Shown: positions 1 to 33,974 of the stretch, in pieces
Numbering within the stretch: position 1 is the first letter of the stretch
Layout: every line of letters starts with the position of its first letter
NCBI GenBank assembly: GCA_029857955.1
Contig: JAOUFY010000026.1
Location: forward strand, 1 to 38,089
Reading direction: 5' to 3'
From: Spirochaetia bacterium
GTDB lineage: Bacteria > Spirochaetota > Leptospiria > Turneriellales > JAOUFE01
DNA: 38,089 nt
Notes under the pieces: generated by a model
What the model saw: only the letters and a program-made list of their open reading frames with translations
Database searches by the model: none
Told to the model about the DNA's origin: nothing
Translations under genes and position numbers: made by a program

Positions 1-444
1 AACCACGTATCCGAAGAAAATGAAAAGCGGGGTTGTGCTGGGCATCAAAAGCGGATCTTTTATATGGAAAGCTTTCTCTGCCCAGAAAGATTTCTCATCA
101 TTAGTTAAAAGTATAGCTGGAATGGATGCGATCAAAACTGCCAGAGGAGGAACCAGTTCCAGCAAATATCCAGAGCTTTTAACTGTTTTCATTTTGTAAT
201 GGAACCAGATCATTAACCAGCTAAAAGTGACAGTCACCATAAACGGGTAGATTCCGTATACATAGGGCTGTGCCAGAAGTCTGCCGGAATAAAATAGCGC
301 CATATGATAATGACAGGCCGCCATAAATAATGTGAATATTGAAAAAAGGAGTCTTTCCGGCTTAGGGGAAATAACAAAGGAATAAACTTGTATCGCAGTT
401 AAAATTAAATAAAGTAAGGCGAAATAATAATATATTTCAATCAT
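1..444 (-). CDS. Membrane protein of unknown function, N-terminal part (3' end outside window)
   Basis: The minus strand is open from an ATG at 444-442 to the window edge (148 codons), starting MIEIYYYFALLYLILTAIQ. Roughly five hydrophobic stretches can be seen: about residues 4-21, 29-46, 60-80, 98-116 and 136-148. Short charged loops separate them (SPKPER, KMKTVKSSG, TNDEKSFWAEK). This fits a multi-pass inner-membrane sensor or regulator N-terminus. Comparable 5-7 TM N-termini are found on AraC-type or histidine-kinase regulators in several bacteria, but the C-terminal output domain is not visible, so no function can be assigned. The gene diverges from the H-NOX operon, with 169 bp between the two starts. 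No clear Shine-Dalgarno precedes the ATG. Confidence 0.6.
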   Translation of the reverse strand, partial: MIEIYYYFALLYLILTAIQVYSFVISPKPERLLFSIFTLFMAACHYHMALFYSGRLLAQPYVYGIYPFMVTVTFSWLMIWFHYKMKTVKSSGYLLELVPPLAVLIASIPAILLTNDEKSFWAEKAFHIKDPLLMPSTTPLFIFFGYVV

Positions 445-613
445 ATTAACGATTTATCTTATATAGAGATCGACATAAATCATAATTATAGACAAATAGA
501 TAATCATTTTTTATGTGAATTTTAACTTTTTTTTTCTCGGCTGATCCGCAAGGAAGACAATCCGTAATTTATGTGCTATACACTATCCTGAAAATAGGAT
601 TAGGAAGGTTTTA
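445..613. promoter_or_regulatory. Divergent intergenic region upstream of the H-NOX operon
   Basis: This 169-bp AT-rich spacer lies between a leftward membrane-protein gene and the rightward H-NOX gene, so it should carry promoters for both. It contains a poly-T run (527-535), a 17-base motif TGATCCGCAAGGAAGAC (542-558) that recurs after the operon, and an AGGAAGG ribosome-binding site (602-608) five bases before the H-NOX ATG. I could not pick out a convincing sigma-70 box pair. Confidence 0.4.
542..558 (+). repeat. 17-base direct repeat, copy A, upstream of the NO operon
   Basis: TGATCCGCAAGGAAGAC recurs at 3924-3940 as TGATCCGCAGGGAAGAC, with one mismatch. In both places a run of T with a TCTC or CTTCTC tail precedes it. 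The two copies bracket the H-NOX/cyclase/GGDEF operon exactly. Confidence 0.6.
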
Positions 614-1165
614 ATGAAAGGTATAATTTTTACGTATTTGGAAGAATTTGTCATTAAAAATGCCGGTATAGAAGCGTGGGACACACTTCTTGAGACAACG
701 CATTTAAAAACGGAAGATGGTGTATTTGTCAGCCCCGGAAACTATCCGGATGAGGATCTGTTTGCTCTTGTTGCTGCAGGCAGTAAAAATCTTAATTTAC
801 CTATGAACGATGTCATCTATGCATTTGGTGAATTTGTCGCTTCCAAATACCACCAGGACTATACCGATTTTTTTAAGCCTGGTATGTCAGCAAAAACACT
901 TTTAAATTCAGTAGACAAGATCATTCACGTTGAGGTAAAAAAATTGTATCCGGATGTTCATCTGCCGCAATTTCAGTATGAAGATCCGGCTCCTGATAAA
1001 CTGGTGATGAAATATTTTTCCACCAGAAAACTGTGCGTGCTTGCCAAAGGTCTTATCAATGGAGTTGGTAACTTGTACAATGAAAAAATAGAAATCAGTG
1101 AGCCGTTATGCATGCATAATGGAGCCGATCACTGTCGTCTTGAGCTTACATTTGTTAAAAAGTAG
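614..1165 (+). CDS. H-NOX heme nitric-oxide-binding sensor protein
   Basis: A stand-alone 183-residue H-NOX domain, the usual length for the family. It binds ferrous heme b and senses NO in the cytoplasm, normally passing the signal to a partner encoded beside it. The proximal heme ligand is His105 (KIIHVEVKKLYP). The propionate-binding Y-x-S-x-R motif is Tyr134-Phe-Ser136-Thr-Arg138. The position five residues after that Arg, which is the distal Tyr in O2-binding members, is Leu143, so an NO-selective, O2-excluding pocket is predicted. Cys141, Cys166 and Cys174 line up with three of the four zinc/redox ligands described in Shewanella and Vibrio H-NOX, and the His ligand position appears replaced. 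A good AGGAAGG site precedes the ATG. Downstream come an adenylate cyclase (66 bp away) and a diguanylate cyclase, the likely partners. Confidence 0.93.
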   Translation: MKGIIFTYLEEFVIKNAGIEAWDTLLETTHLKTEDGVFVSPGNYPDEDLFALVAAGSKNLNLPMNDVIYAFGEFVASKYHQDYTDFFKPGMSAKTLLNSVDKIIHVEVKKLYPDVHLPQFQYEDPAPDKLVMKYFSTRKLCVLAKGLINGVGNLYNEKIEISEPLCMHNGADHCRLELTFVKK

Positions 1166-1231
1166 ATAATGCATTTTCAAAAAAAATGCCAATGATCTGC
1201 CCAAATAATAAAAGTGTTTTCTGATTAACGT

Positions 1232-2755
1232 ATGAGTGACATATATACAGAAAAAAAACGGCAAACTGTTTTTTTGTCTTTGGTATTATCGGGATTTGCT
1301 GTAATCTACTTCTTTTCGGGAATATTTAATCTTGCCGTAGCCCCGCGCCCTGTTCTGGGGATTATCGAAATCGTGATGGGAGTTTTATACCTCATTTCAT
1401 ACAAATGGACGAAGCGTTCAGGGTCTATATCATTTGCATCATGGTTTCTGGTTTTAAGTATGTCCCTGTTTTTTGTACTTTTCTTTTATCAGTATAAAGG
1501 AAACTACTACTCCATTTCACTGGCTTTTATTGTACCTGCTATGATATTTGTACTTTTCCCTAAAAAAGCAGGGCTTTTGCTGTATTCCCTATATTCAGTA
1601 GCTGTTTTTTTTGTTTTGAGTTTGCATGCCTACAATGAAGGATATTTGCAGCTATCATCGTATGTATTAAATCTTGTTATTGCCTTTGTCGCTACCGGAG
1701 GTGTTTTCTATTATTCTGAAACTATAAAATCAGACGCTCTTGGATCACTGATAAAAATTTCTGACGCTTTATCTTCCCAGAAGGAAAAACTGGAAAAAAA
1801 CTACAACCGCAGCAAAGCCAAGGAGGCGATTTTAACCAATCTGATTGAAGAAAAAAGCCGCGCAATTTTTCAGGAGAAAAATCTGCTGGAGAGAAATTAC
1901 AAACGGACCAAGGCGAAAGAAGATTCGCTCACCAGACTTATAGAAGACAAATCCCGAGAAATATTCCACGAAAAAGAAAAAAGCGAAAGCCTTTTGCTGA
2001 ATATTCTTCCGCATTCTATAGTGGAAGAGCTGAAAAAAAGTGAAGAGGTCAAGCCGCTCAATTACTCTTCTGCCACCATTTTATTCTCAGATTTTGTCGG
2101 GTTCACCAAAATTGCGGAAACCACCCCACCAGAAAAACTGGTAAAAAATCTCGATTATTGTTTTTCAAGATTTGAGTTAATTTCAGAAAAGTTGAATATT
2201 GAAAAAATAAAAACCATCGGAGACGCATATATGTGCGCCGGAGGTCTGCCAGTAGCCAATCGGACGCACTCTGTGGATGCGTGTCTCACTGCGCTAAAAA
2301 TGATGGATTTTGTTCGAAGATGGAATCTGGCAAGAGAAAATAAAGGTTTGAAGCGATGGGATATTCGAATTGGAATCAACACAGGCCCATGTATTGCGGG
2401 AATTATTGGTAAAAAGAAGTTTGCCTATGATGTATGGGGAGACGCGGTAAACATTGCATCAAGAATGGAATCCAGCGGACTTGCCGGAGAGATTAATTTA
2501 TCGGAATCTACAAAAAACATTGTCGATCAATTTTTTGTAACCGAACCGCGAGGATTTGTTATGTGTAAAAACAAGGGTGAAATGGCAATGTTTTTACTAA
2601 AATCCATCAGGCCGGAGCTTTCCGAAAATGGCAAAGGAACGAGGCCTAATCAAACCTTTGTAAAGATGTATATGAAGATGAAAAATTCCGCAGAAAATAA
2701 CACTCTGCTTGAATCCGGTTTCAATGAAACCTCCGAAAACCTAATCATGAAATGA
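1232..2755 (+). CDS. Membrane-anchored class III adenylate cyclase
   Basis: 507 residues. About six transmembrane helices (residues ~12-165) come first, then a charged coiled coil containing two near-identical ~34-residue repeats (NYNRSKAKEA... and NYKRTKAKED...). A linker LLLNILPHSIVEELK follows, then a class III catalytic domain (~280-455). The metal-binding aspartates lie in FSDFVGFT and KTIGDAYM. The purine-specifying pair is Lys (EKIKTIGD) and Asp (FAYDVWGD), the combination of adenylate rather than guanylate cyclases. The Asn/Arg transition-state pair lies in NIASRMES. It should make cAMP as a homodimer at the inner membrane. It lacks an H-NOX-associated domain, so any regulation by the upstream H-NOX protein must use the membrane part or the coiled coil. 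The last 4 bases overlap the next gene (ATGA), so the two are translationally coupled. Confidence 0.93.
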   Translation: MSDIYTEKKRQTVFLSLVLSGFAVIYFFSGIFNLAVAPRPVLGIIEIVMGVLYLISYKWTKRSGSISFASWFLVLSMSLFFVLFFYQYKGNYYSISLAFIVPAMIFVLFPKKAGLLLYSLYSVAVFFVLSLHAYNEGYLQLSSYVLNLVIAFVATGGVFYYSETIKSDALGSLIKISDALSSQKEKLEKNYNRSKAKEAILTNLIEEKSRAIFQEKNLLERNYKRTKAKEDSLTRLIEDKSREIFHEKEKSESLLLNILPHSIVEELKKSEEVKPLNYSSATILFSDFVGFTKIAETTPPEKLVKNLDYCFSRFELISEKLNIEKIKTIGDAYMCAGGLPVANRTHSVDACLTALKMMDFVRRWNLARENKGLKRWDIRIGINTGPCIAGIIGKKKFAYDVWGDAVNIASRMESSGLAGEINLSESTKNIVDQFFVTEPRGFVMCKNKGEMAMFLLKSIRPELSENGKGTRPNQTFVKMYMKMKNSAENNTLLESGFNETSENLIMK

Positions 2756-3900
2756 GTCCGACCAAAATCATTCGGGGCAAAATTTATGAAAAAGCAATCA
2801 AACCCGGGCGATTTGGCTTTATATTTGAATCTGAAGCGCTTAGAAACCAAAAACTGGAAGATTACCGTTCTTTTTGTTCGGCCATGTTTTTCCTTTCCGG
2901 ATTTTTTGGCGCTGCTCTTTGGGTGTGGGATTACGTCACAGATCCGCTGGGTTCGATGAACACAATCGGGCTCAGGGCAGGATATCTGTTTTTGATTTTA
3001 ATGGTAGTCGCGTTCAAGTATGTGAGTCGGTGGAGGTTGCTGGCTTTTTTATCCCTCTTGGCAATTTTGCTGGCTGAAGTTTTGTTCATTGTGATTCTTA
3101 ATCGGCTTAATACCGGCATGATTTATGGCATCGGCGGCTTCATGATATTTGCCTTCGTCCCCATGTTGCTGTTGCAGGCTTTCCCCTTGTTTTTTAACAT
3201 GATCCAGGCTATCCTGGTTGCTGGTGCTCCGCATATGCTAGCCATGCTGGGTTACGCCCCTGGCTTTCAACATGACCACTATGCCGTGTTGATCTGGCCG
3301 ACGGTGTCTTTGATGATGTTGATTTATTTTGCTGATGCTTATAATTACAGACTGAGATATGAAATTGAGTTGGCGCTAAAGCATGCATCCCTTACCGATT
3401 CCATGACCGGTTTAAATAACAGACGCTATTTTGAACCGTTGCTGAAACAGGAAATTGCCCGGTTTTCACGTTTGAAACATCCCGTATCGCTGATGATGCT
3501 GGATATCGACCATTTCAAAAAAATCAACGATAGCTATGGACATATGACGGGCGATTTGGTTATTTGCCAGCTTGCCGATATTTGCCGAAAAGCAATCCGC
3601 GAAATTGACGTGGTCGCGAGATTGGGCGGAGAGGAATTTGCGATCATGCTTCCGGAGACTTCGGCTGTGGATGCTGCCAGGGTGGCGGAGCGCATACGTA
3701 CCACTGTGGAAAAAACCACGGTCAAAAGTTTGGCTGGCGCGGAATTCTCCTTTACCGTGAGCATTGGTGTAGCCGAATCATTTCCAGGTGATCTGTCCAG
3801 CGACAAGCTTGTAACCGTTGCGGATGAAGCGTTGTATCAAGCGAAAGAGTCAGGACGCAACCGGGTAGAGATTAAAACTTTAGAGTACAAACTGGAATAG
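2752..3900 (+). CDS. Membrane-anchored GGDEF diguanylate cyclase
   Basis: 382 residues. An N-terminal block of about six transmembrane helices (~40-200) is followed by a complete GGDEF domain (~218-380). It has the N-terminal SLTDSMTGLNNRRYF signature, the metal-binding DIDHFKKIND segment and the active-site GGEEF. The product-inhibition I-site RxxD (REID) lies five residues before GGEEF, so it is predicted to be an active, feedback-inhibited synthase of c-di-GMP. Its start codon overlaps the stop of the adenylate cyclase gene, making it the third gene of the NO-sensing operon. Its base composition is visibly more GC-rich than the two genes before it, which may mean a separate origin. H-NOX proteins are known partners of diguanylate cyclases in other bacteria; the same link is inferred here. 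Confidence 0.93.
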   Translation: MSPTKIIRGKIYEKAIKPGRFGFIFESEALRNQKLEDYRSFCSAMFFLSGFFGAALWVWDYVTDPLGSMNTIGLRAGYLFLILMVVAFKYVSRWRLLAFLSLLAILLAEVLFIVILNRLNTGMIYGIGGFMIFAFVPMLLLQAFPLFFNMIQAILVAGAPHMLAMLGYAPGFQHDHYAVLIWPTVSLMMLIYFADAYNYRLRYEIELALKHASLTDSMTGLNNRRYFEPLLKQEIARFSRLKHPVSLMMLDIDHFKKINDSYGHMTGDLVICQLADICRKAIREIDVVARLGGEEFAIMLPETSAVDAARVAERIRTTVEKTTVKSLAGAEFSFTVSIGVAESFPGDLSSDKLVTVADEALYQAKESGRNRVEIKTLEYKLE

Positions 3901-3923
3901 ACTACGCTTTTTTTCTTCTCCAT

Positions 3924-3940
3924 TGATCCGCAGGGAAGAC
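3924..3940 (+). repeat. 17-base direct repeat, copy B, downstream of the NO operon
   Basis: TGATCCGCAGGGAAGAC matches 16 of 17 bases of the copy at 542-558 and has a similar T-rich leader (3908-3920). It begins 24 bases after the GGDEF stop codon. Confidence 0.6.
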
Positions 3941-4053: not shown

Positions 4054-4223
4054 GGGGTAGGGGGCTGTCTAAAAGGTCTCGCCTCAAAGGCGCAAAGGGC
4101 GCAAAGTAAAGAAATAAAGGTATTTTTCTTATCATTTCCTTTAATTCCTTTGCATTCTTTGCGTCTTCGCGTTTAAATTTTGACTTATTAGACAACCCCA
4201 TAGGGGCATACCTGCCCCTTTTT
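4054..4223 (+). repeat. Palindromic gene-end module, copy 1
   Basis: The left arm reads GGGGTAGGGGGCTGTCTAAAA (first 20 bases from 4054). The right arm TTAGACAACCCC (4188-4199) is its complement with small differences, and the hairpin GGGGCATACCTGCCCC (4203-4218) with a T run follows at once. The inner arms form a second imperfect inverted repeat made of the GGCGCAAAG / CTTTGCGTC motif, a sequence seen between genes in many unrelated bacteria. The module fills the space between the convergent GGDEF and POTRA-barrel genes and ends at the stop codon of the latter, so it probably works as a terminator. Confidence 0.75.
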
Positions 4224-5475
4224 ACTCAAAGAAATTACCTTTGCGATATTCATAGCCCATCTTTACATAGAACTGTCCGCCTGTGTTTTGCCACAGTTCA
4301 TGCCCGTAACCGACCTGCAGCGCCAGGTTTAACGGAGCGCTGAACTCGACGCTGATGGCGCCGCCTGTCGAAAGATTCCAGGTATCGCGATGAATCGCGA
4401 CAATTTGATCGCCCGCCATGGCCAGATCGACATAGGCCAGTAAATTAAAATGAATGTTGGTGATGGACGACGGAACGGTCACAATATCGCGTATCCAGTT
4501 TTCGGCATTTAGTACAACGCTGTTTCGCCCAAAGTAATGGTTTGTAATCTGGCCGTGTATCTGATATTCATTGTCAATGCGGTATAAAAGATAATCGGGG
4601 ATATTGCCGTTTACGGTCGACCGATAGCGACCGCGCAAAATGATTTCTTCCCATTTGGCCGGCTTTACATAAACATTGACGCCCGCCGAAGTCATTGTGT
4701 ACGGAAATTTTACAATGCCCTGATAAACTGCCGCATTTAAATCAAAGCCGGCGTAAATAACGTCCTTGTAGTGCGAAAAATCAAGCAGGGTTTCAAGACC
4801 GGTTGACAAGTCGCTCGTATTTACCGTTTTTGTATCGCTCTTGATATTGTATCGAAACATGGCCGGAACCTTTATTTTCCAGTTACGTAAAACGCTCATC
4901 GACAACGCCGCGCGCCCCGAAGCCGCTTCGTAATCGTATTCCTTTAGCGTATAAAAAGGGATTTTATACGAGTGGTGGGTAACGGTTGTTGCCAGATCCA
5001 AAGGTGATCCAAGCCAGTACGGAAATCGAAAATAGAGCGACTGAGATTTTAGGCCTACCATAAATCCAAAGTCGGGAGATTTTTCTGAAATGGAGCTGAA
5101 CCGGGTAAAAGCACCCTCTTCCAGACCAATAATATCCAGCATCATAACATTTTCGCCCATGGAAATAATGATGTTGCAGGTTGCATCGTCGCGGGTTTCA
5201 TAATTCATTTCAATAAACATAAAAAGGCCGCTTCCTTCCATTTTAGCCTTTGATACCTTGATGGAAAACTCCAGTTCGCGCAGAGACAACTTCATGCCTT
5301 CCTTAATAGAAAGCATTTCCCGAATTTTTTTCTCAGGAACTCGCACATTACCGATAAACGTTATTTTTGCGATGGAATATTTTTTTTCAGGTTCGCTTGC
5401 ATCAACTGCGGCGACCGCGCCCATGAGCATTAGAGCCAATATTGCGATACAATTTTTAACATTTTTTATTTTCAT
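4222..5475 (-). CDS. Single-POTRA outer-membrane beta-barrel protein (BamA/TamA-like)
   Basis: About 417 residues from the ATG at 5475. I chose this start because the upstream in-frame ATG (5487) lies inside the GGAGG ribosome-binding site that serves it. The order is: a signal peptide (MKIKNVKNCIAILALMLMGA, cleavage near VDA-SEP); one POTRA-like domain (ITFIGNVRVPEKKIREML, then SGLFMFIEMNYE); then a region of alternating aromatic and polar residues typical of a ~16-strand barrel; and a C-terminal aromatic (NFFE). This is the Omp85/TamA layout, but with one POTRA instead of three to five, and shorter than BamA. It is the last gene of a minus-strand operon with a periplasmic TPR protein and an ABC transporter. 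A role in moving a lipid or protein to the outer membrane is inferred. Confidence 0.72.
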   Translation of the reverse strand: MKIKNVKNCIAILALMLMGAVAAVDASEPEKKYSIAKITFIGNVRVPEKKIREMLSIKEGMKLSLRELEFSIKVSKAKMEGSGLFMFIEMNYETRDDATCNIIISMGENVMMLDIIGLEEGAFTRFSSISEKSPDFGFMVGLKSQSLYFRFPYWLGSPLDLATTVTHHSYKIPFYTLKEYDYEAASGRAALSMSVLRNWKIKVPAMFRYNIKSDTKTVNTSDLSTGLETLLDFSHYKDVIYAGFDLNAAVYQGIVKFPYTMTSAGVNVYVKPAKWEEIILRGRYRSTVNGNIPDYLLYRIDNEYQIHGQITNHYFGRNSVVLNAENWIRDIVTVPSSITNIHFNLLAYVDLAMAGDQIVAIHRDTWNLSTGGAISVEFSAPLNLALQVGYGHELWQNTGGQFYVKMGYEYRKGNFFE

Positions 5476-5514
5476 TTTATCCTCCATTTTGTTCTTTGTT
5501 ATCTAAAGTTTGGT

Positions 5515-5536
5515 CCGCCGCACACGGTTGCGGCGG
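5515..5536 (-). other. GC-rich hairpin between the permease and barrel genes
   Basis: CCGCCGC (5515-5521) pairs perfectly with GCGGCGG (5530-5536) around an 8-base loop. It lies in the leader of the barrel gene and downstream of the permease gene on the same strand. No U-run follows on the coding (minus) strand, so it is more likely an mRNA-stabilising or attenuating structure than a full intrinsic terminator. Confidence 0.5.
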
Positions 5537-5591
5537 AGGGGGTTGAAAAAATATTTTCCATAAGTTTAATCTCATTACTGTTTATCCCGCC

Positions 5592-6845
5592 TTAGACATA
5601 CCGCAGGGCATCTATTATCCTGATCTTAGCGCCCTTTCGTGCCGGCAAAATTGACGCTAAAAATGCTGTGACAAGATTTACCAACAGGGCATTTATAAGC
5701 ACAACGCTGCTCTGGGTAAACATGATCGGCGTGGGTTTGGTTTGTCCCGGGCCGGGCGGCAAACTCAGGTGCATGGCGTTGATCCAAGGCATTAAAATCA
5801 GGGAAATGAAGATTCCAGCTAACGCCCCAAAGAGACCGATAATAAACCCCTCAGCCAGAAACTCCCTGATAATTTCGCCGCGGCTTGAACCCATGGCGCG
5901 CATTGCCCCGATCTCGCGAAATCGCTCGTGAATGGACATATGCATTGTATTGTGAATGTTAAAGATAATCACCAGAAAAACAATTATGCTCACCACAATA
6001 ATCATACCGCGAAACATGCCGATGACCTGCTTTATAAAAACGGCCAGTGTTTTCCAGTCACGAATTTCAAGATTTAGATTGTTTTCGTTAATAAATTTTT
6101 GCATGGTCTGGATGGTTTGCGCCAACTTCTCCGGCTTATTCAGAAAAATCAAAATTCGGTGCGATGTCTTTTCGAGCATGAGATCCCACGCTGAACTTAT
6201 GGGCATATAAATGATTACCTTCTCCTGCTCGGGCATCAGAGCTTCGTAAATACCGCGTACGTTTACCGCAATGGCTTCCTGCGATCCGTTCGCTCCGCTG
6301 ACAAAAGCAATCAGATGATCTCCAATGTCGATGCCGAGTTTTTTGGCCATGGCCTTGCCAATCATAATTCCGCCGGATTCCTTATCTGAAAGAAGATTTC
6401 CCTTTACAAGCGTGGGCGCCATCAATCCTTCGGCAGAGGGTATGCCCGCAATGCCCATAAATACCGTTGATTTTTTTTGCGTGCCAATAATACCATTTAA
6501 ATGAATTCGCGTATTTACAAAATCTACGGAATCAAGTTCCATGGCTTTTGCAGTAATTTTTTGAACCACCTCCCTGCTCATTACAAATTCTGCCGAATTT
6601 TCTTCCGCGGAAAAATATCCTTTGGCGGCTATTTGAAAATGTCCGTATTGCTTTTGTATGGCATCGGCTTGTAATCCCATCTCCATCGTATTTACATAAC
6701 TTTGCAGAAGAACCAGCGTGATGGTTCCGACGGCAATACTTGACATGGTAATGGCAGCCCTTCGGCGATTGCGCCATACATTTTTCACGGCAAATTTTAA
6801 AAACTGCCATAAATCGTATGCCTGTGTGATTAATTTAGTTTTCAT
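5592..6845 (-). CDS. FtsX/MacB-type ABC transporter permease
   Basis: About 417 residues. The start at 6845 is chosen because AAGGAG sits just upstream (AAGGAGAATAAAATG); a longer frame to 6908 adds 21 residues without family support. The topology is that of the LolC/E-MacB-FtsX family: TM1 near the N-terminus (AAITMSSIAVGTITLVLL), a large periplasmic MacB-core-like domain of roughly 230 residues, then three TM helices with the conserved cytoplasmic loop RFREIGAMRAMGSSRGEI, and a C-terminal LPARKGAKI segment. Such permeases do not move substrate through the membrane. They use ATP-driven mechanical motion to extract lipoproteins or lipids or to work a periplasmic partner. The ATPase gene precedes it by 74 bp and the barrel gene follows it. 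Confidence 0.87.
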   Translation of the reverse strand: MKTKLITQAYDLWQFLKFAVKNVWRNRRRAAITMSSIAVGTITLVLLQSYVNTMEMGLQADAIQKQYGHFQIAAKGYFSAEENSAEFVMSREVVQKITAKAMELDSVDFVNTRIHLNGIIGTQKKSTVFMGIAGIPSAEGLMAPTLVKGNLLSDKESGGIMIGKAMAKKLGIDIGDHLIAFVSGANGSQEAIAVNVRGIYEALMPEQEKVIIYMPISSAWDLMLEKTSHRILIFLNKPEKLAQTIQTMQKFINENNLNLEIRDWKTLAVFIKQVIGMFRGMIIVVSIIVFLVIIFNIHNTMHMSIHERFREIGAMRAMGSSRGEIIREFLAEGFIIGLFGALAGIFISLILMPWINAMHLSLPPGPGQTKPTPIMFTQSSVVLINALLVNLVTAFLASILPARKGAKIRIIDALRYV

Positions 6846-6919
6846 TTTATTCTCCTTTTTAACCTGAATTCCTGATATTGAAATTGAACGGCGGCCTGGA
6901 TTTTCCAAAAAGTTTTTCT

Positions 6920-7642
6920 TTATCTGTGTTCATCCGTGTTTATCCGTGGCTCTTCTTTTACTGAAGTTCTATCGCTTATTATTTTTCCGTCTTTTAACAA
7001 TATCTGGCGATGGCTCAGGGATAAAACTTCCGGGTCGTGGCTGGCCAGAACAAAGGTCACATTTTTTTCAACGTTCATTTTTTCCATGAGTTCCAAAATA
7101 GAAGCGCCGTTGGCAGAATCCAGATTTGCCGTAGGCTCATCAGCCAGAACAATTTCAGGATTTTTTGCAAACGCGCGCGCGATGCTCACCCTTTGTTGCT
7201 GACCGCCGGAAATTTCGTTGGGATATCTTTTCAAGAAATCTTGTAATCCCACCCTTTCGAGAGACTCCTCTACAAGCAGGCGGCGCTCATACACATCTCG
7301 CACCGTAGAAAGCAGCGGACGCTCTACATTTTCAAAAACCGTAAGCGTTGGAATCAGATGGAAGTTTTGAAAAATATAACCCAGATATTCCCTGCGAATT
7401 TTGGTCAATATTTTTTCTTTGCTGCCCTCTGTTTCCAGAGAATCAATGATGACGCTTCCCGAGCTGGGTTCGTCAATCAAACCAATAAGATTCAACAGTG
7501 TACTTTTACCGCTGCCCGATGAACCCGCCACAACAAGAAACTCTCCCTTTTTTACCTGAAGCGAAACGTCGTTTAAGGCCACCGCGGGAATTTTCCCTGG
7601 ATAGTAAATCTTGCTGACATTTTGCAAATCAATCATATTCAT
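6920..7642 (-). CDS. LolD/MacB-type ABC transporter ATPase
   Basis: 240 residues. It has Walker A (GSSGSGKST, ~41-49), a Q-loop (YIFQNFHLIPTLTVFENVERP), the signature SGGQQQR, Walker B (VLADEPTANLDS) and the H-loop His (ASHDPE). It powers the FtsX-type permease encoded next. It starts inside the stop codon of the TPR gene (ATGA overlap) with AAGGAG about 8 bases upstream. The last ~11 residues (EEPRINTDEHR) are not part of the ABC fold. They are translated from an intergenic decamer repeat, so the ancestral stop was probably lost and replaced by one in the repeat. Confidence 0.93.
   Translation of the reverse strand: MNMIDLQNVSKIYYPGKIPAVALNDVSLQVKKGEFLVVAGSSGSGKSTLLNLIGLIDEPSSGSVIIDSLETEGSKEKILTKIRREYLGYIFQNFHLIPTLTVFENVERPLLSTVRDVYERRLLVEESLERVGLQDFLKRYPNEISGGQQQRVSIARAFAKNPEIVLADEPTANLDSANGASILELMEKMNVEKNVTFVLASHDPEVLSLSHRQILLKDGKIISDRTSVKEEPRINTDEHR
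6921..6951. repeat. Decamer repeat of the widespread TATCCGTGTT family
   Basis: TATCTGTGTT, CATCCGTGTT and TATCCGTGGC are three consecutive ten-base units. On the minus strand they give the CACGGATAAACACGGATGAACACAGATA sequence type known between genes of many unrelated bacteria, often mistranslated as INTDEHR peptides. Here it forms the 3' end of the ABC ATPase gene. Confidence 0.7.
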
Positions 7643-8666: not shown

Positions 8667-9035
8667 ATGGTAATTAAAACAGAAGAGCGTCATAAAACAA
8701 TTATACCAAAAGACGAAAAAAGAAAATTTCGACGGGAAATTTTTAATTATAAAGTTGAGTTATTGTCTCATAATTCCAAAAATAAAATAAAATGTGCTTC
8801 TTTTGATCTTTCTGAGGGCGGCATACGTGTCGTTACAAATGTAGAATTAAAAGATCAAGCCTATACGGTATATATCGACAATTATAAATTTAATGCTCAT
8901 TTGGTTTTTGAAGAAGCCAGAAAGTCAACAATGATGGATCAGTATGCTTATTATCATGGTCTTCGTTTTGAAAAGCCTATAACTCCAGACGTTAAAAATA
9001 AATTATTAGTAGCTGCTAAAAAATTCCGTTTTTGA
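8667..9035 (+). CDS. PilZ-domain c-di-GMP-binding protein
   Basis: 122 residues, essentially a lone PilZ domain. Both c-di-GMP contact motifs are present: RxxxR as Arg19-Lys-Phe-Arg-Arg23, and DxSxxG as Asp47-Leu-Ser49-Glu-Gly-Gly52. The beta-barrel continues to HGLRFEKP, followed by a C-terminal helix (TPDVKNKLLVAAKKF). It should be a cytoplasmic receiver of c-di-GMP, for which two synthases are encoded in this window. It stands alone on the plus strand, and its last 30 bases overlap the 3' end of the convergent tsaD gene. The target process cannot be told from the sequence. Confidence 0.88.
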   Translation: MVIKTEERHKTIIPKDEKRKFRREIFNYKVELLSHNSKNKIKCASFDLSEGGIRVVTNVELKDQAYTVYIDNYKFNAHLVFEEARKSTMMDQYAYYHGLRFEKPITPDVKNKLLVAAKKFRF

Positions 9036-21467: not shown

Positions 21468-21869
21468 ATGAAATCACGCATGAAGGATCAAAATATAACC
21501 ACAAAAAATGCGAAACTGTCTTTGGAAGATGAAATTTTGCATTTAACTATAGACTATAAAAATGGTATCACCATTGATGATGCTAAAGAAATTGTAAGCG
21601 CTGCTATTAAATTGTCAAAGGGCGAAAAGTTTCTTTGCATTATGAAATCGCTTAATTACAGCCTGCCGTCTCGTGAAGTAAGGGCATACCCCGTTCACGA
21701 TGAAGTCGCAAAATACATTCAGGCAATTGCCTTTATTGCTATAAACCCTGTCGCAAATATCGCGGCCAGGTTTTTTATAAAAATAAGTAAACCGCCTTTT
21801 CCGTTTAAGCTGTTTACCGATGAAGAAGAGGCCATCAAATGGTTAAAGAATTTTCAAATAAAAAAATAG
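21468..21869 (+). CDS. STAS/SpoIIAA-like small protein (DUF7793-like), type A copy 1
   Basis: 133 residues with the layout of the small STAS-like family often called DUF7793: N-terminal strands (KNAKLSLEDEILHLTIDYKN), a helix (DDAKEIVSAAIKLSKG), a core strand (EKFLCIMKSLN), SREVRAYPVHDEVAKYIQAI, then NIAARFFIKISKPPFPFKLF and a closing helix EEEAIKWLKNF. No enzyme motif is visible. STAS-like folds usually act as protein-binding or phosphorylation-switched modules. The third gene of the cassette is its paralogue. The last 31 bases overlap the start of the next gene. A second ATG at 21480 is an equally possible start. Confidence 0.68.
   Translation: MKSRMKDQNITTKNAKLSLEDEILHLTIDYKNGITIDDAKEIVSAAIKLSKGEKFLCIMKSLNYSLPSREVRAYPVHDEVAKYIQAIAFIAINPVANIAARFFIKISKPPFPFKLFTDEEEAIKWLKNFQIKK
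21828..21858 (+). repeat. Dual-coding conserved overlap, copy 1
   Basis: The stretch AGGCCATCAAATGGTTAAAG plus AATTTTCAAA is identical at the A/B and C/D gene junctions (the second near 22633-22662). It encodes EAIKWLKNFQ in the upstream gene and MVKEFSN in the downstream gene, and it supplies the ribosome-binding site of the latter. Confidence 0.75.
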
Positions 21870-22255
21870 ATAATGAAGTAAAGACAAGAAACGCCAGAAT
21901 CTGGCTGGACAATGAAGGCATTGTACATGCTGTTTATACTCCCGGCACTGAAGAAAGTCTTGAAGACGCCGAAAATAATCTTAATGCTGTTGGTAAAGTT
22001 TACCAAAACAAAAAGCGTCCGATTTTCATAACGGGCCCTCATAAATCCATGAGCCGAGACGCAAGAATTTATTATGTCAAACATTCGCCCAAATACGCCG
22101 TTGCTGTTGCCGTGATCATTAAATCGTCGTTCACTAAAGTATTATCTACATTTTTAATATCCCTGAACAAGACGATCAACAAAGGGGAATTTCCTGTCAG
22201 GTTTTTTGCAGAAGAAAAAAAAGCGCTCGATTGGCTGAGGGATTTTACTGAATAA
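21839..22255 (+). CDS. STAS-like small protein (DUF7793-like), type B copy 1
   Basis: 138 residues, distantly similar to the preceding protein and closely similar to the fourth gene of the cassette. Visible segments: N-terminal MVKEFSNKKIDNEVKTRNAR, the helix LEDAENNLNAVGKVYQNKKR, PIFITGPHKSMSRDARIYYV, KHSPKYAVAVAVIIKSSFTK, and the C-terminal FFAEEKKALDWLRDF. Its ATG lies inside the 3' end of the type A gene (31-base overlap), served by an AAGAGG site that is itself coding sequence, so translation should be coupled. The protein is probably a binding partner of type A, since the two always come as a pair here. Function unknown. Confidence 0.7.
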   Translation: MVKEFSNKKIDNEVKTRNARIWLDNEGIVHAVYTPGTEESLEDAENNLNAVGKVYQNKKRPIFITGPHKSMSRDARIYYVKHSPKYAVAVAVIIKSSFTKVLSTFLISLNKTINKGEFPVRFFAEEKKALDWLRDFTE

Positions 22256-22272
22256 ACTGATTAGATAATTGT

Positions 22273-22674
22273 ATGACAACTCACTTAAATGAAATATTAA
22301 AAACAAGAGTTGCAAACCTGTCCATGGATGATGCGGGTATTGTAAGGTTAACCATTGATCATAAAAATGGACTCATGCCCGATGACCTTAAGGAAATTCT
22401 TTCTGGCATTTCAAAGCTTGCCAAAGGCAAAAAAGCCCTGATTATCGGGCATTCCATCAATTTTAAACTGCCTTCCCGTGAAGTTAGAATTTTCGCTGCA
22501 GAAAAGGTCAATTCAGAAGTTATCAAGGCTGCCGCTACGATCAGTTCAAATTCCATGGCGGTAATGGCTGCAAATTTTTTCTTAAAAATAAATCAACCGC
22601 CTTTTCCTTTTAAGGCTTTTTCCAATGAAAAGGAGGCCATCAAATGGTTAAAGAATTTTCAAACGAAAATATAA
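22273..22674 (+). CDS. STAS-like small protein (DUF7793-like), type A copy 2
   Basis: 133 residues, a paralogue of the first cassette gene. They share LTIDxKNG, the DDxKEI helix, LPSREVR, FFxKIxxPPFPFK and a near-identical C-terminus (EAIKWLKNFQ). It starts 17 bp after the preceding stop. Divergence is moderate across the middle (for example EKVNSEVIKAAATISSNSM against HDEVAKYIQAIAFIAINPV), so the duplication is not recent, yet the 3' end that overlaps the next gene is unchanged at the DNA level. Again no catalytic residues are seen. Confidence 0.68.
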   Translation: MTTHLNEILKTRVANLSMDDAGIVRLTIDHKNGLMPDDLKEILSGISKLAKGKKALIIGHSINFKLPSREVRIFAAEKVNSEVIKAAATISSNSMAVMAANFFLKINQPPFPFKAFSNEKEAIKWLKNFQTKI

Positions 22675-23063
22675 AAAAGGTAATTCAAACCAGAAATACC
22701 AAAATCGGGCTTTCAGATGAAGGTATTGTCATGGTTACTTATCCGCAGGGTATTGACGAGACTCTTGAAGATGCTGAAGAAAATTTAAACGCCCTTGATA
22801 AAATTTGCAATGGTAAAAAGTTGCCAATATTCATCGACCCAGGTCCGCATAAGTCCTTGAGCCGTGAAGCAAGGATTTACTATGTGAAACATTCTCCTGA
22901 ATATGCGATTGCTGTTGCAGTTCTTGTGAAATCAACTTTTGCAAAAGTGTTATCAGCTTTTTTGATAACATTGAACAAAACAATAAATAAAGGAAAATTT
23001 CCAATTCAATTTTTTACATCTCAAGAGAAAGCTCTGGACTGGCTGAGAAGAATTAATGGTTGA
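22644..23063 (+). CDS. STAS-like small protein (DUF7793-like), type B copy 2
   Basis: 139 residues, the paralogue of the second cassette gene (MVKEFSN start, TLEDAEENLNALDKI, GPHKSLSREARIYYVKHSPE, LNKTINKGKFPIQFF, ALDWLRR). It overlaps the type A copy 2 gene by 31 bases, and a strong AAAAGGAGG site lies in the upstream coding sequence. It is the last small gene before the PAS-GGDEF-EAL gene, 56 bp downstream. That spacing and shared orientation suggest, but do not prove, one transcript and a role in controlling c-di-GMP turnover. Confidence 0.7.
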   Translation: MVKEFSNENIKKVIQTRNTKIGLSDEGIVMVTYPQGIDETLEDAEENLNALDKICNGKKLPIFIDPGPHKSLSREARIYYVKHSPEYAIAVAVLVKSTFAKVLSAFLITLNKTINKGKFPIQFFTSQEKALDWLRRING

Positions 23064-31661: not shown

Positions 31662-33974
31662 TTAAAGGCCAAGTTGGGTTTTCCATGTTTTTGCATTTTT
31701 TTTGGCATATGAATAACCTGCTTCGACGATCTTGTCAAAATCTTTCCATCCAAACAAACTGTAGTCGCCGACAGGAAGTTCAATATAGAGATCCACACTT
31801 TTTTGAGTTGTATGTTCCATGGCAAGCGAGTGAACCATCGTGGCGCGCATAATCAGGTTTCCCATTGCGGGAACATGCGCTTTTCTAAACCTTGGGCTTA
31901 GTTTCTTTTTTAAAGCCTCGATAATTGACGGAGCAATACCTTGTTTTCTTTCATCAAATATTGCTGAAAATATTTTATCTCTGGATTTTCTGTCCCCAGT
32001 ACCAAGGCAGACGGCAATACTGATCCCCGTGTTTTTATTTTTTAAAACTGAGCCCGGAATATTATCAAGAAGAGCGCCGTCGACGTAAATCGATCCATCA
32101 TCGTATAACGGCGGCATAATTCCCGGCAGAGACGTACTTGCCCGAATGGCTTTCCAGAGATAGCCTTCGCTAAAAACTTTTTTTTCTGCAAGAGTGAGAT
32201 CAGTTGCTACCGCAAAATATGGTATCCACATGTCTTCGATTTTTTTAGTACCCAGAAATTCTCTGATTGCATGCGTATATTTGCCGCCTCTTAATAATGA
32301 AACCAGCGGATATGTGTAATCATTTAAATTATTTTTATCCACCATGATTTTTTTGGCGATAGATTCGATTTCATTAATTTTGTATCCAAGTGCATATAGC
32401 GCTCCCATGATAGATCCTGCGCTGGTTCCGCCTATGATATCAACCGGTATACCTTCTTCTTCAAAAGCCCTTAGCAGTCCAATATGGGCAAAACCTTTTG
32501 CACCGCCGCCTCCGAGCGCCAACCCTATTGACTGCCCCATGAAGGTTCTTGACAATCTGGAGAAATCTTTGTCTTCATAGATTCTTATATGGTGGTATTG
32601 TGAAACTTTCCGGTTTGTTAACTTAAGACCGGTTTCAGACGGTTCCAAATCCGGCTGGTCATAAAGTAAAATTAATTCCTTTTCGGGAGATTTTTCGTTT
32701 GAACTTTCATTTAAATATCGGATTTCAACAGGATAAAGCGATTCGCTGCACTGGTGATCTGCAAGCAAATAAATTTTGTCGGTATGTTTTATGCATGTTT
32801 CTGTCCATACCTTGTCGTCGGGTTCAGAAATAATTAAAACCAACTCGTAGGTATCTTCTAATGTATACAGCCATGAAAATAAACTCGTGAGGCTGTAACT
32901 AATATTTGCAGATGAAATATTTTGATTATTTTCATTTTCTAAATGTTTAACAAATGATTTTTTATCTGCATAAAAAACTGATTTATTTTTTTTAAGACAA
33001 TTAACAAGTTTGTGTGCAAAATCCGTGTATGGTAAATTCTCATATAATGGTAAAATGGTGACCACTTTGATTTTTCTTTTCTTTTTTGCATATCCCATTT
33101 TATTTTTAAGACGAAGGGCAATGGTACGTGTAATGTTCATCATCCCCAAAGGATTTTTTGAAATCAGATTTTCAAAAACTTCTGTAGTAAAACGGACAAC
33201 CTCGCAACCGCGTGTAGAAAATACTGTTGCGGAACGCTTTTCTCCCGTGAGAAGCGACATTTCTCCAATTATATCTCCTCGTGAAAATTCGCCTTCATCG
33301 ACAATTTCTTGATTTTGATTTTGAACAATATATCGCAGACGACCGTTAACCACGATGTACATGGAGTCACCCATGTCGTCTTGTTTCATTAGAGTTTCTC
33401 CTCCCGGTAAAAAAATCCATTGCATTTTTGGCTCAAGAGCGGCAAGAGTTTCTGCATCAAGACTTGACATAAGATCTATGGAAGATAAAAAATTACGTAA
33501 TTTTTCAGGTGAAGGGCGAAATTGTGACGGGTTGATTGTTTTACTTCTTTTGCCCACGATACGAACAAAAGCTTCCATTTCTTTTGGGCTTTCTTTTAGA
33601 ATTTCCTGGAAGTCAATATGTGAAAGTGAAATGAGTTCGCAGTCTATACTTGCTTTCACCGTAGCGTTTCTGGGTTCTTTGGTAATTAATGCGCCTTCGC
33701 CGACACAATCTCCTGTTGAAATTTCTCCTGCTTTTTTGAGAGATTTATTTTCATCTGTAATATATACATCGAGTTTACCTTTAACTACAATGTAAAGTTT
33801 ATCTCCAATTTCACCTTGTTTCATGACGTCCTGCCCGGCTTTAAAAGAAACCGGTGAAACTTTTGACGCAATTTTTGTGAGAGTATTATCATTGATACCA
33901 TTAAACAAAACTACATTATTACTTATAAAATCTTTTGTTAATGCTAAATCGGTTTCAGTTATTTTTGATTTCAT
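31662..33974 (-). CDS. Patatin-like phospholipase with two cyclic-nucleotide-binding domains (NTE-like)
   Basis: 770 residues. Two cNMP-binding domains come first (~16-130 and ~165-285). Both have a phosphate-binding cassette with the conserved Glu and Arg (GEGALITKEPRNATVKA and GEMSLLTGEKRSATV), so cAMP or cGMP binding is likely. A ~150-residue linker of Rossmann-like strands follows. The patatin domain (~485-690) has the oxyanion loop GLALGGGGAKGFAHIG, the nucleophile GGTSAGS (Ser ~517) and the dyad Asp in DGALLDNIP. This is the layout of bacterial relatives of neuropathy target esterase, which hydrolyse lysophospholipids. It may be a direct effector of the cAMP made by the cyclase at 1232-2755. 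It is a single minus-strand gene after a convergent module. Confidence 0.92.
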   Translation of the reverse strand: MKSKITETDLALTKDFISNNVVLFNGINDNTLTKIASKVSPVSFKAGQDVMKQGEIGDKLYIVVKGKLDVYITDENKSLKKAGEISTGDCVGEGALITKEPRNATVKASIDCELISLSHIDFQEILKESPKEMEAFVRIVGKRSKTINPSQFRPSPEKLRNFLSSIDLMSSLDAETLAALEPKMQWIFLPGGETLMKQDDMGDSMYIVVNGRLRYIVQNQNQEIVDEGEFSRGDIIGEMSLLTGEKRSATVFSTRGCEVVRFTTEVFENLISKNPLGMMNITRTIALRLKNKMGYAKKKRKIKVVTILPLYENLPYTDFAHKLVNCLKKNKSVFYADKKSFVKHLENENNQNISSANISYSLTSLFSWLYTLEDTYELVLIISEPDDKVWTETCIKHTDKIYLLADHQCSESLYPVEIRYLNESSNEKSPEKELILLYDQPDLEPSETGLKLTNRKVSQYHHIRIYEDKDFSRLSRTFMGQSIGLALGGGGAKGFAHIGLLRAFEEEGIPVDIIGGTSAGSIMGALYALGYKINEIESIAKKIMVDKNNLNDYTYPLVSLLRGGKYTHAIREFLGTKKIEDMWIPYFAVATDLTLAEKKVFSEGYLWKAIRASTSLPGIMPPLYDDGSIYVDGALLDNIPGSVLKNKNTGISIAVCLGTGDRKSRDKIFSAIFDERKQGIAPSIIEALKKKLSPRFRKAHVPAMGNLIMRATMVHSLAMEHTTQKSVDLYIELPVGDYSLFGWKDFDKIVEAGYSYAKKNAKTWKTQLGL

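Follow-up and report, generated by a model that had tools for sequence, protein, structure and literature searches.

A probable H-NOX/membrane adenylate cyclase pair in a spirochaete, with an apparently unconserved diguanylate cyclase gene behind it

Introduction

When the gene of a stand-alone H-NOX protein is followed on the same strand by genes for two enzymes of different second messengers, does the sensor control one of these enzymes, both or neither? The H-NOX partners named in two reviews are kinases and diguanylate cyclase/phosphodiesterase proteins (PMC8846402, PMC8738867). A separate adenylate cyclase as H-NOX partner, or an H-NOX connected with cAMP in spirochaetes, was not found in the open literature, to which the search was confined. 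The gene order in question is present in the window, that is, the whole stretch of 38,089 nucleotides analysed here, which belongs to the 2.86-Mb draft genome of a Spirochaetia bacterium.

Organisation of the locus

All three open reading frames are complete in the window at the positions listed in Table 1, and the order given in the preliminary description (H-NOX, an adenylate-type class III cyclase and a GGDEF gene joined to it by an ATGA overlap) holds, with Pfam in agreement. The H-NOX and cyclase genes are separated by 66 bases on the same strand, while the cyclase and diguanylate cyclase genes share the four bases ATGA (2752-2755).

Table 1. Features of the three-gene locus and its flanks (positions of the window).
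Feature	Position	Strand	Evidence
Divergent gene truncated at the contig end, encoding a membrane domain	1..444	-	ORF; ortholog in sister species G001 with C-terminal AraC-type DNA-binding domain
Box TTCTCnGCTGATCCGCnnGGAAGAC upstream of H-NOX	527..558	+	Kept in G001; possible regulator site
H-NOX gene, 183 aa	614..1165	+	Pfam PF07700 (HNOB) 2.8e-40; PDB matches S. oneidensis H-NOX 2kii/4u99
Membrane class III adenylate cyclase, 507 aa	1232..2755	+	Pfam Guanylate_cyc 5.2e-50, weak MASE6; PDB relatives AC9, mycobacterial Cya
Membrane part of the cyclase (six predicted segments, MASE6-like)	1268..1708	+	Hydropathy; Pfam MASE6 E 0.001, below cut-off
Coiled-coil repeat copy 1 of the cyclase, residues 187-218, LEKNYNRSKAKEAILTNLIEEKSRAIFQEKNL	1790..1885	+	H-NOX-partner-like; motif HMM match residues 204-226; hhalign
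Coiled-coil repeat copy 2 of the cyclase, from residue 219, LERNYKRTKAKEDSLTRLIEDKSREIFHEKEKS, continuing into the cyclase transducer element	1886..1996	+	Motif HMM match residues 235-255; hhalign
Class III catalytic domain, adenylate-type K327/D400	2060..2602	+	Pfam; motif positions
MASE8-GGDEF diguanylate cyclase with I-site	2752..3900	+	Pfam GGDEF 2.6e-49, MASE8 1.1e-30
Second copy of the TTCTCnGCTGATCCGCnnGGAAGAC box, 8 bases past the last gene	3909..3940	+	Sequence match to the 527-558 copy

The H-NOX sensor and the adenylate cyclase

Alignment to the S. oneidensis H-NOX and a check of single residues showed that the proximal ligand His105 and the Y134-S136-R138 set (YFSTR, 134-138) are kept. 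H-NOX proteins of the O2-binding type have a distal Tyr, whose position can be located by a spacing rule. By this motif spacing, the position is occupied by Leu143 in the window protein, which has no distal Tyr and is, in this respect, of the NO-selective type. Together, these residues indicate a heme pocket of the NO type, and binding of heme and NO is predicted. As well, Cys141, Cys166 and Cys174 correspond to the zinc-site cysteines of the S. oneidensis protein, while the zinc ligand His161 of the latter, a position at which the zinc groups have His or Gln, is replaced by Glu163.

The product of the second gene possesses, according to motif positions, the metal-binding D287 and D331, the adenylate-type K327 and D400, and the transition-state residues N407 and R411, which indicate an adenylate-type cyclase with cAMP as its predicted product. 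Hydropathy predicts six hydrophobic N-terminal segments in this enzyme and likewise in the diguanylate cyclase, a feature on which the preliminary description is silent. In the adenylate cyclase, a long coiled coil connects this membrane part to the catalytic domain. The cyclase is not of the soluble guanylate cyclase type, as it has no HNOBA/PAS domain and carries Lys/Asp in place of Glu/Cys. In the Pfam search, HNOBA matched it weakly and only with the C-terminal helical tail (residues 221-267, E 0.011, below cut-off), and an HNOBA domain beyond this tail was rejected. The earlier statement that neither enzyme has an HNOB-associated domain is thus right for the PAS-like part, with this sub-threshold tail match in the cyclase as its qualification.

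Conservation of the gene pair

Only one other species of the genus, and of the family, was sampled (G001, a 94%-complete genome), and it carries orthologs of both genes, the H-NOX being 85% and the cyclase 75% identical. Each of the two genes lies there at a contig edge, in an orientation fitting a join, and their adjacency, which spans the contig gap, is likely. H-NOX was present in 22 of the 393 genomes of the phylum, and a same-strand class III cyclase stood beside it only in this genus and in G152, in the same order. Another genome of the same class, G081, contains an H-NOX gene, an HNOBA kinase gene and then a convergent REC-cyclase gene lying tail to tail with that of the kinase.

Because class III cyclases are abundant in these genomes (16 in the source genome, besides about 24 GGDEF genes, and 16-27 in related genomes), the frequency of chance neighbours was estimated. 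Three class III cyclases were seen at most two genes from H-NOX in the class, against about 0.24 expected (P 0.0018, post hoc), and two same-strand cyclase neighbours in the phylum, against 0.09 expected (P 0.004, post hoc). A divergent cyclase in G026 was set aside as a further case, its first metal Asp being missing by eye. Conservation of the whole order of H-NOX, cyclase and GGDEF genes, which the preliminary description had named as its own check, was not found in relatives among the 393 genomes of the phylum, and only the two-gene H-NOX/cyclase part survives.

Other forms of H-NOX were met in the same material. G365 encodes a chemotaxis receptor with a C-terminally fused H-NOX (L036, 5768-7714), and the loci L042-L047 (families f19, f36 and f29) contain divergent, weakly scoring H-NOX-like proteins. 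In G015 and G038, a ComEC-type competence gene comes next after a divergent H-NOX-like gene.

A partner motif in the coiled coil of the cyclase

A survey of H-NOX loci in Pseudomonadota and Verrucomicrobiota, the phyla of Rheinheimera and Chthoniobacter (L102-L152), revealed the motif LERRLxRExxARxxAExLLExKSxELY, which opens the next gene after H-NOX in 40 of the 51 loci of these two other phyla. The motif is common to histidine kinases and GGDEF/EAL proteins encoded next to H-NOX; the gene that bears it invariably shares the strand of H-NOX and follows it immediately, 75-123 bases past the H-NOX domain. In the window cyclase, the KS-core of this motif occurs twice in tandem, 32 residues apart, just before the catalytic domain, and two tandem copies are likewise present in the G001 ortholog. 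These repeats match mainly the second (C-terminal) half of the motif, LLExKSxELY, its N-terminal half being poorly matched, and they are located in the linker of the cyclase, in contrast to the N-terminal position of the motif in other H-NOX partners.

A profile of the motif, grown from a seed of seven sequences to 39 loci, was searched against all frames of all loci fetched, including 331 kb of the source genome's other stretches and the loci of cyclase homologues. The repeats of the G001 and window cyclases were the top non-partner matches, at 10.0 to 7.0 bits, although one unrelated frame also reached 7.1, and the single repeat matches are weak (E 0.5 to 4 over the entire search). A tblastn search of plasmids with the consensus of the motif gave no match, perhaps owing to the low-complexity filter. 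In heptad-preserving shuffles, the best single-copy score was reached in two of 5000 for the window and in none of 5000 for G001, and two copies were never obtained; the profile-profile score (hhalign) was 29.7, whereas none of 400 controls with columns shuffled within heptad positions exceeded 19.3. Moreover, the KS-core was absent from all 27 homologous cyclase linkers of related genomes. Coiled coils match one another easily, and the shuffle controls lessen the risk of a chance match but do not abolish it. The motif search found no copy in the window GGDEF protein, in the kinase-like neighbour of the G152 H-NOX, or in the G152 cyclase, and the last of these counts against the H-NOX/cyclase pairing.

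In the H-NOX tree, all 40 proteins with motif-bearing partners fall on one side of a single branch (support 100/99). The window/G001 pair joins these proteins in a wider clade (98/92), and all other spirochaetal H-NOX proteins, except the long-branched one of G152, lie outside it. The branch that unites the pair with the motif clade proper is weak (81/34), while the wider clade is firm. As the window H-NOX groups with the H-NOX clade of motif-bearing partners, the sensor tree and the partner motif agree independently of each other. It had been supposed earlier that the mode of contact would be new, which is probably wrong: given the KS-core copies in its linker and the clade of its H-NOX, the cyclase would rather present the usual partner helix, known here from the kinases and GGDEF proteins that accompany H-NOX in other genomes, on an enzyme of cAMP synthesis. 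Possibly, the motif represents a general docking helix for H-NOX.

The diguanylate cyclase gene

The product of the third gene contains GGEEF at 292-296 and, in RxxD form, REID at 283-286, so that both the catalytic motif and the I-site are intact, as had been described, and they indicate an active diguanylate cyclase with an I-site. No ortholog of this protein was found in the 94%-complete G001, where the best match is 40% identical and covers the catalytic part only. In that genome, only a few bases separate the end of the cyclase ortholog from an inverted repeat at the border of an IS66 fragment; rRNA comes next, and no GGDEF gene follows the cyclase. The composition of the diguanylate cyclase gene also differs, with a GC of 0.461 and a GC3 of 0.521, whereas 194 long ORFs of the source genome average 0.363 and 0.309; its GC lies in the top 1% of the sampled ORFs, while that of the H-NOX and cyclase genes is 0.385. 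The downstream block 4222-7642 is GC-richer as well. Whether the gene arrived in this lineage or disappeared from G001 together with the IS event, it is no conserved part of the locus. Having neither the partner motif nor, with its ortholog missing from G001, a conserved neighbourhood, it looks like a recent or later, unconserved neighbour.

Control region and flanks

The three genes are framed by two direct copies of a box of some 30 bases (a 32-base element). The upstream copy is conserved in G001, where it lies beside a divergent membrane AraC-type gene in the same position next to H-NOX, and the product of this gene, the ortholog of the divergent gene of the window, carries a C-terminal HTH_18 domain of AraC type (Pfam, 2.2e-16). 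The box may be a site of the divergent AraC-type regulator. Read by eye, AAGACA (554-559) and TATACA (577-582), spaced by 17 bases, make a putative promoter, although a consensus promoter scan did not list this candidate at 554-582. The box was rejected as a dispersed repeat, since only two copies with at most one mismatch exist in 369 kb of the source genome, and, as Rfam gave no match of note at either box, a riboswitch or other known RNA was rejected as well. The second copy also has promoter-like spacing, and the same strand holds no gene from there to a terminator-like hairpin at 4202-4219. A low-complexity repeat (GCGCAAAGGGCGCAAAG) occupies 4073-4200, in the interval that separates the third gene from the following one, and a minus-strand ORF in it is probably spurious.

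Proposed mechanism and alternative explanations

Our preferred reading, to which we give a probability of roughly 0.66 on the strength of sequence comparisons, is that the stand-alone NO-type H-NOX controls the adjacent membrane adenylate cyclase via its coiled coil, the diguanylate cyclase being at most co-transcribed. An H-NOX with a separate cAMP cyclase is supported by probable conservation in the genus, the partner motif, the H-NOX tree and the repeated finding, within the class, of cyclases close to H-NOX. NO, or oxidation of the Cys cluster, would change the H-NOX, which would then dock on the coiled coil with its two motif copies; docking would shift the helix register or the dimer geometry and thereby alter the rate of cAMP synthesis. 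Binding of the H-NOX to the diguanylate cyclase would not be expected. Inhibition by the NO-bound H-NOX is the commoner outcome in the bacteria studied. The kinase HnoK is bound by H-NOX through helices alphaA-alphaC and alphaF (PMC7108781), and coiled coils that precede class III cyclase domains are regulatory (PMC2828450).

It is rather improbable that the link is one of transcription only, in which the genes would share a regulated promoter (AraC-type, with the box at 527-558), the H-NOX would act on another protein and both enzymes would follow their own membrane sensor domains. The divergent AraC gene and the box conserved with G001 would suit such a link, as would the sensor-like membrane N-termini of both enzymes and the many class III cyclase and GGDEF genes of the genome, which make chance neighbours possible, but the motif carried by the cyclase and the place of the H-NOX in its tree speak against it. 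We judge less probable again the two-messenger operon of the preliminary description, in which NO would act through one H-NOX on both the adenylate and the diguanylate cyclase. Its ATGA overlap suggests translational coupling, a GGDEF protein is found near H-NOX in eight of 30 Pseudomonadota loci, and diguanylate cyclases under the control of H-NOX are known (PMC8846402). However, seven of those eight GGDEF neighbours carry the partner motif and that of the window does not, and the missing G001 ortholog, the IS66 remnant and rRNA after the G001 cyclase, and a GC far from that of its operon partners count against it as well. What had been proposed therefore keeps its cAMP half, on account of the motif, the tree and the pair, while its c-di-GMP half is left unsupported, ortholog, typical composition and motif all being missing.

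Least probable, in our view, though still a serious alternative as to the input, is that the window H-NOX serves the cyclase as a thiol/redox sensor and not as a sensor of NO. The three zinc-site cysteines are kept, the H-NOX of Caulobacter responds to oxidation of its Cys residues, by which it is activated, but not to NO (PMC12329717), and that of V. cholerae is activated by oxidation without heme (PMC7108781); against this stand the Glu in place of the fourth zinc ligand and the retention of all heme-pocket residues checked. Also unlikely, if less so than these three, is a broader idea, in which the helix would be an "address", RExxARxxAExLLExKSxELY, read by stand-alone H-NOX proteins and set by evolution on kinases, on c-di-GMP enzymes and here on a membrane adenylate cyclase, and the diguanylate cyclase recently added in this genus would make a budding two-messenger NO switch.

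Comparison with known systems

The H-NOX/HnoK and H-NOX/diguanylate cyclase pairs of Shewanella, Vibrio, Legionella and Dinoroseobacter (PMC8846402, PMC8738867) resemble the window in having a stand-alone H-NOX of the same wider clade, a partner gene directly downstream on the same strand and a similar coiled-coil motif. They differ in output, for which the window would use a membrane-anchored class III adenylate cyclase, and in having one N-terminal motif instead of two in tandem in the linker. With animal soluble guanylate cyclase (H-NOX, HNOBA/PAS, coiled coil and class III cyclase), the window would share an H-NOX signal passed to a class III cyclase, plausibly via the coiled coil before the catalytic domain, whereas it has two separate proteins, no HNOBA/PAS, a membrane anchor, adenylate-type residues and, presumably, a homodimer. 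The G081 cluster, of the same class, likewise ties an H-NOX by neighbourhood to a class III cyclase, but a kinase and a receiver domain come in between, and its H-NOX lies elsewhere in the tree.

Provisionally, we regard both the motif and the cAMP variant of H-NOX signalling as new. If the preferred reading is true, cAMP joins the outputs of bacterial NO sensing, and the pair parallels the NO-cyclase pathway of animals with two separate proteins. Moreover, a motif common to partners of differing catalysis offers a docking site open to experiment, and searches with it could reveal H-NOX partners whose genes lie away from that of the sensor.

Other genes of the window

Two further genes of the window encode potential messenger receivers, namely a patatin/NTE-like phospholipase with two cyclic-nucleotide-binding domains (31662-33974) and a PilZ protein (8667-9035). 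Finally, four small DUF7793/SpoIIAA-like genes with overlapping ends are arranged as A-B-A'-B' at 21468-23063 and followed by a PAS-GGDEF-EAL gene; A and A' are 53% and B and B' 65% identical, so that a gene pair has been duplicated in tandem.
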